A DNA stretch of 64,000 bases from Anaeromyxobacter sp. Fw109-5 (GTDB lineage Bacteria > Myxococcota > Myxococcia > Myxococcales > Anaeromyxobacteraceae), in NCBI RefSeq assembly GCF_000017505.1, contig NC_009675.1, positions 4,034,501 through 4,098,500 on the forward strand. Reading direction: 5' to 3'. Both the position numbers and the translations under genes were made by a program. Below the pieces are notes generated by a model, which searched no databases, had not been told where the DNA came from, and worked only from the letters and a program-made list of their open reading frames with translations. This document shows positions 42,437 to 44,141 of this stretch, piece after piece. Position 1 is the stretch's first letter. Each line of letters starts with the position of its first letter.

Positions 42437-42742
42437 GTGACCGAGCTCCTCGGCTGGCTCAGCTCCGCGATCCTCGTCGCGACGATCCTGAAGCAGGTGC
42501 ACAAGCAGTGGCGGGAGGGGTCCAGCGAGGGCGTCTCGCGCTGGCTCTTCGCGGGCCAGATCGCGGCGTCGACCGGCTTCACGGTCTACAGCGCGCTGCT
42601 GGGGAACGCGGTGTTCGTGGTGACGAACGCGATCCTGCTCGCGAGCGCGGTGACCGGCCTCGTCATCGTCCTCCGGCACCGGCGTCGCGCGCGTCGGGCG
42701 GGTAGGTCACCTGCCGTCCGGAGATCCGCGCGAACGGCGTGA
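42437..42742 (+). CDS. SemiSWEET/PQ-loop small membrane transporter
   Basis: This 101-aa protein starts at GTG 42437. It has three helices: LLGWLSSAILVATILKQVHKQW, SRWLFAGQIAASTGFTVYSALLG and AVFVVTNAILLASAVTGLVIVL, separated by short loops, followed by an Arg-rich tail. The topology, WLSS start and VTN motif match SemiSWEETs, half-size sugar transporters that dimerise. In place of the usual Pro-Gln of the PQ-loop motif there is K-Q-V, so substrate and function may differ. Its last 80 bp overlap the 3' end of the convergent DUF488 gene. Confidence 0.72.
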   Translation: MTELLGWLSSAILVATILKQVHKQWREGSSEGVSRWLFAGQIAASTGFTVYSALLGNAVFVVTNAILLASAVTGLVIVLRHRRRARRAGRSPAVRRSARTA

Positions 42743-43256
42743 GCCGGTGCGGGCGGGTCCGGCCCCGGCCGACGATGTGCCGCACCACCACGCCGCGCGC
42801 GAGGAGGGCGTCGGCGATGAGGGAGCGGTGGCATCGCCACGGCACCGCCTCGGCGCACATGACCGCCACCGGCCCCTCGCGCGCCAGCGTGCGGAGCTGC
42901 ACGAGCCCCTCCTCGAACTCCGGCGTCGCCATGTGATCCGCGTAGCCCCGGAAGCTGGCGTTGCGCCACCCGCCGTTCGGCGAGTCCTTGCGGGCTCGCC
43001 GCAGGCCGCCGAGCGCCGGCAGGTGGACGTAGCCGATGCCGGCCGCCGCGAGGGCCCGCGCCAGCGCCTCGCCCTCGTACTGCGGGTTCGCGCGCGAGCG
43101 CGGGATCGTCCGGACGTCCGCGAGGGTCGCGACCCCCGCCCCCTCGAGCAGCTCCAGGAGCTCGGAGATCGGCCGCGTGGAGTGGCCGACGGCGAGGACC
43201 TGCGCCCTCCCCCAGCCTGGCGCCGCCCTCGGCCTCGCTTCCCGCTCCTCGGCCAT
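42663..43256 (-). CDS. DUF488-family protein
   Basis: This 197-aa protein starts at ATG 43256, with GAGG upstream. It has the family's sequence LAVGHSTRPISELLELLEGAGVATLADVRTIPRSRANPQY, YVHLPALGGLR and the Cys-containing signature MCAEAVPWRCHRSLIADALL near residue 150. DUF488 proteins are widespread with no firm biochemical role. The C-terminal 27 codons overlap the end of the SemiSWEET gene on the other strand. It is divergent from the HesB-like selenoprotein gene. Confidence 0.85.
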   Translation of the reverse strand: MAEEREARPRAAPGWGRAQVLAVGHSTRPISELLELLEGAGVATLADVRTIPRSRANPQYEGEALARALAAAGIGYVHLPALGGLRRARKDSPNGGWRNASFRGYADHMATPEFEEGLVQLRTLAREGPVAVMCAEAVPWRCHRSLIADALLARGVVVRHIVGRGRTRPHRLTPFARISGRQVTYPPDARDAGAGGR

Positions 43257-43385: not shown

Positions 43386-43706
43386 ATGACGACCGCCCCC
43401 GAGCCCACCATCGAGATCGACCCCCGCGCCCGCGAGACGCTCCTCGCGCTGGCAGGCACGGGCGAGCACGCGCATTACGTCCGGATCCACGTCGGGCGAG
43501 GCTGAGGTGGCTGGAGCTTCCAACTGTCTCTGGACGAGACGGCCGACCCGCAGCGGGACGTGGTGATCGAGGAGCACGGGGTACGGTTCCTGGCGGAGGT
43601 GCACCAGCGGCACCTCGTCGAAGGGCTCCGCATCGAGGTGCAGCGCGTCTTCGGCCGCGAGGGGCTCGTGGCGTACAGCCCGCGGCTCGAGCCGGGCGGT
43701 TGCTGA
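43386..43706 (+). CDS. HesB/IscA-like selenoprotein (in-frame TGA read as selenocysteine)
   Basis: Read straight through, this frame gives 106 residues: 39 codons, an in-frame TGA at 43503-43505 as residue 40, then 66 codons to TGC-TGA. The product matches the HesB/IscA fold: ITIDP-like start (IEIDPRARETLLALAG), VRIHVGRG-U-GGWSFQLSLDE, HGVRFLAEV and a C-terminal PGGC. The TGA replaces exactly the first conserved cysteine of the GGGC-(S/G)-G motif. Sixty of 66 codons after the TGA end in G or C, so coding selection continues past it. A suitable bSECIS hairpin follows the TGA. HesB-like proteins bind or deliver iron-sulfur clusters. A nonsense-mutated pseudogene is the alternative. Confidence 0.85.
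43503..43542 (+). promoter_or_regulatory. predicted bacterial SECIS element
   Basis: Downstream of the UGA (43503-43505), CUGUCUC (43524-43530) pairs with GAGACGG (43536-43542), seven pairs with one G-U. The apical loop UGGAC has a G among its first two bases. The loop begins 25 nt after the UGA, inside the 16-37 nt window accepted for bSECIS elements that recruit SelB. Confidence 0.7.
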
Positions 43707-43749
43707 CGGCAGGCGGGCGCCTCCTCGCGGGGTAACGAGAACCCCAGGA

Positions 43750-43780
43750 TTGACAAGGACCCAGCCGCGATCGATACGTT
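43750..43780 (+). promoter_or_regulatory. promoter with -35 TTGACA and -10 TACGTT, leaderless spacing
   Basis: TTGACA (43750-43755) is a perfect -35. TACGTT (43775-43780) lies 19 nt downstream and ends 7 nt before the ATG at 43788, so the transcript would have almost no leader. The 19-nt spacer is slightly long; GATACG at 17 nt is the alternative -10. Confidence 0.5.
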
Positions 43781-43787
43781 CCGGCCG

Positions 43788-44141
43788 ATGCTGGGCAAGC
43801 GCAACGAGCCGAAGCGGTGGCCGCGGGGTCAGAAGTTCACGCTCTCCCCGGAGGGCGCGGACGCCGAGGCCGCCTACCGGAACGTCGTCGCCGAGTCCCG
43901 CTCGAGCGGGCGCGCGGCGCTCGACGCCGCGCTGGCGGCCTGGGCCGGCCCGCACCGCGTGGCCCCGGCCGACGGGGTGGTCCTCTCGGAGCTGCGCGGC
44001 AAGCGGCTCGGCGTTCCGGACCTGGTGCGCGAGCTGGAGGCCGCCGGCATCGCCGCGGACGAGGTGCGCGCCTCGCTCGAGCGGCTCGTCGCCGCGGGCG
44101 TCGTCGCGCCCATTCCGCTCGCGTCGCAGCTCGGGAACTAG
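43788..44141 (+). CDS. hypothetical protein, 117 aa
   Basis: This small soluble protein starts at ATG 43788. It begins basic (MLGKRNEPKRWPRGQKFTLS) and continues with three predicted helices (ADAEAAYRNVVAESR, GRAALDAALAAWAG, VPDLVRELEAAGIAADEVRASLERLVAAGVV). The last part resembles a winged-helix DNA-binding unit. I do not recognise a named family and see no catalytic motif. A good promoter directly precedes it. It is convergent with the release-factor-like gene 24 bp away. Confidence 0.7.
   Translation: MLGKRNEPKRWPRGQKFTLSPEGADAEAAYRNVVAESRSSGRAALDAALAAWAGPHRVAPADGVVLSELRGKRLGVPDLVRELEAAGIAADEVRASLERLVAAGVVAPIPLASQLGN

Follow-up and report, generated by a model that had tools for sequence, protein, structure and literature searches.

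An IscA/HesB gene with an in-frame UGA, located in the window (the whole 64,000-nucleotide stretch of Anaeromyxobacter sp. Fw109-5 DNA analysed here), is almost certainly a selenoprotein gene, its UGA being decoded as selenocysteine (Sec) within a protein of the IscA fold (Table 1). Sequence comparison places the predicted product in a new and divergent clade, an overlooked branch within a selenoprotein family that is already known. The frame comprises 39 codons, the in-frame TGA and 66 further codons before the stop, giving a read-through product of 106 residues with Sec as residue 40 and Cys as its C-terminal residue. The boundaries and codon counts given in a preliminary description proved exact, and its figure of 60 G- or C-ending codons among the 66 that follow the TGA was reproduced on recounting. 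The read-through frame matched the Pfam family Fe-S_biosyn (PF01521) (E-value 6.5e-7; 30 bits, gathering score 26.3). Together with the IscA fold described below, this match makes the product a member of this family of the A-type fold. Because of this match, and because the same TGA recurs in each of the clade's 12 members, at identities as low as 41%, the observation is far beyond chance.

Table 1. Features of the predicted selenoprotein gene, in window coordinates
Feature	Position	Strand	Basis
Predicted selenoprotein gene; 106-aa IscA/HesB-fold protein with Sec40 and Cys106, stop TGA	43386..43706	+	Frame, Pfam, orthologues, structure model
Predicted Sec-encoding UGA, at first conserved Cys of IscA/HesB	43503..43505	+	Alignment, orthologues
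Predicted bacterial SECIS core; stem of 7 bp (43524-43530 pairing with 43536-43542), loop UGGAC at 43531-43535	43524..43542	+	Comparison; published model (PMC13188914)
Codon of C-terminal Cys106, abutting the stop; kept in 11/11 complete members	43701..43703	+	Orthologue alignment
True stop; TGA in window gene, TAG in two orthologues; conservation ends there	43704..43706	+	Orthologue alignment

The clade was assembled from a search of 195 Myxococcota genomes and consists of the window gene and 11 orthologues with 41–87% identity to the window protein, its members belonging to Anaeromyxobacteraceae and to one other family in its order. The closest named matches of the gene were those of Anaeromyxobacter terrae (86%) and A. 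soli (79%), and the family placement of the window is taken from the named matches. The TGA occupied the identical codon and alignment column in every member, with none of the 12 carrying Cys there. Sixteen of the 22 invariant alignment columns were located after the TGA column. A high non-synonymous rate after the TGA in relatives had been named beforehand as a result that would speak against a selenoprotein; the protein was found to be conserved in this part, mostly better than before the TGA. The non-synonymous difference was lower after the TGA in seven of the nine pairs compared, for instance 0.098 against 0.156 for L018/L020 and 0.237 against 0.403 for L018/L021. A nonsense mutation in an IscA-like gene would likewise leave a lone in-frame TGA, but such a pseudogene is exceedingly improbable and is already contradicted by the comparative data, namely the TGA codon shared by the 12 divergent members, the conservation of the protein beyond it and the lack of a Cys version.

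Long antisense ORFs overlap the gene, and it could be supposed that the conserved sequence represents an antisense gene or that only a truncated product of 39 amino acids is made. This is also very improbable, as the antisense ORF 43475-43804 had no Pfam match, the long antisense ORF matched DUF488 at its far end only, and amino acid conservation on either side of the TGA, like the third-position GC pattern, agrees with the plus frame. An antisense gene across the locus was rejected on the Pfam results.

The C-terminal Cys, remarked upon in the preliminary description, was conserved throughout the 11 complete members of the clade, all of which terminate with a Cys codon and a true stop (TGA in nine, TAG in L024 and L032), with no similarity among the orthologues past this stop. 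These features together indicate that the terminal TGA is a stop and that the internal TGA is not. In the window the frame does stay open past the terminal TGA, as might be expected if this codon were also read to give a second Sec after Cys106, but this is again exceedingly improbable given the complete divergence of the sequences beyond it, and it was rejected on account of the TAG found there in two orthologues.

The gene is absent from G004, a near-complete genome of the genus, and a search for relatives among plasmids was empty. Searches of three further phyla, thinly sampled with 2, 5, and 80 genomes, yielded nothing other than Cys proteins or representatives of the known Sec type, and the clade is known only from Myxococcota, other phyla being thinly sampled. 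It should also be noted that unusually many T-ending codons (CGT/CAT, GGT) lie just 5′ of the UGA, at 43497-43502 and at the same codons in GC-rich orthologues, which may reflect selection on the UGA context.

The host genome (5.28 Mb, single contig) carries a complete Sec system. The search for selA, selB, selC, and selD proposed in the preliminary description returned the full set: both selA and selB were found, the tRNA-Sec gene (selC) was detected with 75 bits and predicted by ARAGORN as tRNA-SeC(tca), and selD contains an in-frame TGA and reads SHGAGUACK. This selD (G000:C1:4028582-4029508, minus strand) is located approximately 5 kb before the start of the window and is by its sequence itself a selenoprotein gene.

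Downstream of the UGA, a hairpin with the stem CUGUCUC/GAGACGG and a UGGAC loop is predicted. The hairpin had been described as having a seven-pair stem and as lying 25 nt downstream; stem and loop were as described, with the 25 nt being the distance to the start of the loop and the stem beginning 18 nt after the UGA. Published rules for bacterial SECIS elements give a loop of 3–9 nt, a stem of 4–16 bp, a G in the first two loop positions, a distance of 16–37 nt from the UGA and a minimum free energy (MFE) of ≤ −7.5 (PMC13188914). The hairpin agrees with each of these, with a loop of 5 nt, a stem of 7 bp, G as the second loop nucleotide, a distance of 25 nt and −8.3 kcal/mol for the 19-nt core. 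The MFE fold of a 48-nt stretch of the window sequence alone was a different structure which was not significant against shuffles (z −0.77), and Rfam gave no match on the window. The support for the predicted hairpin is comparative, and folding of the single sequence alone would not reveal it.

Pairing of the stem was 98.6% across the clade, with one G-A mismatch in L025. Over 21 sequences pairing was 93.2% with 14 double changes, which was reached by none of 500 shuffles, a strong result, yet no formal probability as the shuffle test ignores relatedness. The other TGA-containing HesB genes (11 found), which enter into this count of double changes, showed the same hairpin at the same distance from the UGA. 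The hairpin is conserved at the level of the RNA. A stem codon of the form NCT ended in T in all 12 genes of the clade, which have a third-position GC of 83–100%; TCT makes up 2.2% of the Ser codons in the window genes. Three species have A-U in the stem where most others have U-A, and this swap accounts for the double amino acid change Ser/Thr to Thr/Ser (LSLDET to LTLDES), a clear-cut example of paired amino acid changes that accompany an RNA structure within a coding sequence. The SECIS check that had been advised for the stretch after the UGA was made by comparison of relatives, which supported the element. An upstream helix (alignment columns 4–9 with 14–19) was paired to only 83%, and we do not include it in the proposed SECIS.

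The assignment of the UGA to the first conserved HesB/IscA Cys held, as in the alignment profile residue 40 coincides with the Cys of the conserved GCSG motif in E. coli IscA and in its Aquifex and Haemophilus relatives. A conserved in-frame UGA aligned with the Cys of homologues, as expected of a bacterial selenoprotein, is hence present. The working selenoprotein proposed earlier is supported by these comparisons, having survived all of the refuting outcomes set beforehand. The AlphaFold2 model of the product (pLDDT 84) had E. coli IscA as its best match (Foldseek 3e-6), with the IscA structures 1s98 and 1r94 as the top structural matches (Z 13.6 and 13.3 over 96 residues).

The literature on HesB-like selenoproteins goes back to at least 2005–2006 (PMC1242214; PMC1794560; PMC1914089), and such proteins are common, a 2016 survey counting 90 of them in 86 organisms (PMC5029168). 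Among the closest known systems is the NCBIfam family IscA_HesB_Se (NF038090) of bacterial HesB-like selenoproteins, e.g., Desulfovibrio vulgaris DVU_1382 (PMC1914089). The members of NF038090 that were found resemble the window gene in having Sec at the same codon, a hairpin core loop of UGGAY, the 25-nt spacing and an IscA-type sequence. They differ in reading GUGGP...LALDEP where the window protein reads GUGGxS...LSLDETA, and most of them have a CxC or CC tail in place of the single terminal Cys. Against this model the window protein scored 21–22 bits with a cut-off of 85, which was passed by three of the five TGA-containing relatives tested (101–115 bits). TIGR01911 (HesB_rel_seleno, UxGP motif) is likewise a HesB-like selenoprotein family with Sec at the same site; here the window protein scored 13.7 bits against a cut-off of 66.35 and has UGGW for UxGP, the Pro after UGG being missing in 11 of the 12 clade members and present in L033. 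The IscA/SufA/ErpA carriers (TIGR00049, PF01521) have the fold and the position of the first Cys in common with the window protein, which differs in having Sec for Cys and in lacking the CGCG tail. It fell under the TIGR00049 cut-off (33 against 58.8 bits), and of the three conserved Cys of such carriers, including a C-terminal CxC, it has only Sec40 and one terminal Cys in their stead.

In a phylogenetic tree the window clade formed its own supported branch (97/91) adjoining the known Sec type (98/83), and both Sec groups fell on one side of a branch separating them from the sampled Cys carriers (98/98). The 11 rows of the known Sec type were chosen for having a TGA, no Cys versions of this family being included, and the relative age of Sec and Cys can therefore not be read from the tree. 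The shared position of the UGA and the SECIS argues for one origin of Sec in the window clade and the known Sec type, with the Cys members of the latter lying outside the sample. No naming of the window clade was found in the literature searched, supplements and most subscription papers being outside the search.

With regard to function, the UGA is almost certainly translated as Sec by means of tRNA-Sec and SelB, with the hairpin immediately downstream. The resulting protein has the IscA fold, Sec in place of the first ligand Cys, and a single C-terminal Cys where a CxC(G) pair is usual. For the metal role the confidence is lower: Sec40 and Cys106 of the flexible tail, probably within a dimer, could bind iron, an Fe-S cluster or another soft metal, a function we infer with confidence about evenly poised. 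The genome has two ordinary Cys-type Fe-S_biosyn genes elsewhere, so the selenoprotein is probably accessory to the Cys-type carriers and would act beside them as a selenium-dependent carrier. It may further be proposed, tentatively and leaning a little towards doubt, that the clade represents a Sec-only branch of the A-type carriers. In this branch the three-Cys site would have given way to a selenolate and a C-terminal thiolate, which form a Se-ligated carrier of iron or Fe-S for which the sampled Myxococcota show no Cys version.

Alternatively, Sec40 and Cys106 of the same selenoprotein could form a selenylsulfide, the protein acting as a thiol/selenol oxidoreductase with no metal site. This possibility, which is decidedly on the doubtful side, concerns the inferred function only and not the decoding of Sec. 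The only conserved Se/S residues are Sec40 and the terminal Cys (11/11 complete members) and the CxCG pair found in ordinary A-type carriers is missing, both of which would suit a redox pair; the fold, however, is that of IscA and not thioredoxin-type, the protein has no UxxC or CxxU motif, and most relatives in the same Sec group keep several C-terminal Cys, suited to metal binding. Residues 104–106 of the model had a pLDDT below 50, and with the C-terminal tail so poorly modelled any proximity of Sec40 and Cys106 is putative. Either metal binding or a selenylsulfide is compatible with the sequence. Against the inferred carrier role, the HesB-like selenoprotein of M. maripaludis is of unclear function and its mutant fixed nitrogen normally (PMC11097638). 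The conserved two-residue site of Sec and terminal Cys makes the role of HesB-like selenoproteins easier to test.

The gene also adds a selenoprotein missing from the published list for the genus, a 2006 survey having reported 11 selenoproteins of A. dehalogenans with no HesB-like protein among them (PMC1794560). It defines a clade which curated models score well under their cut-offs and which gene finders may split or miss. No Fe-S gene was recognised adjoining it in the neighbourhood, which is a further point against the carrier role. Upstream and divergent lies a DUF488 gene (42663-43166, minus strand), which is kept in two other Anaeromyxobacter loci. A small gene follows (43788-44141, plus strand), having a weak PaaX-like match below the cut-off and no firm family, and this gene is kept beside the selenoprotein gene in five other genomes.
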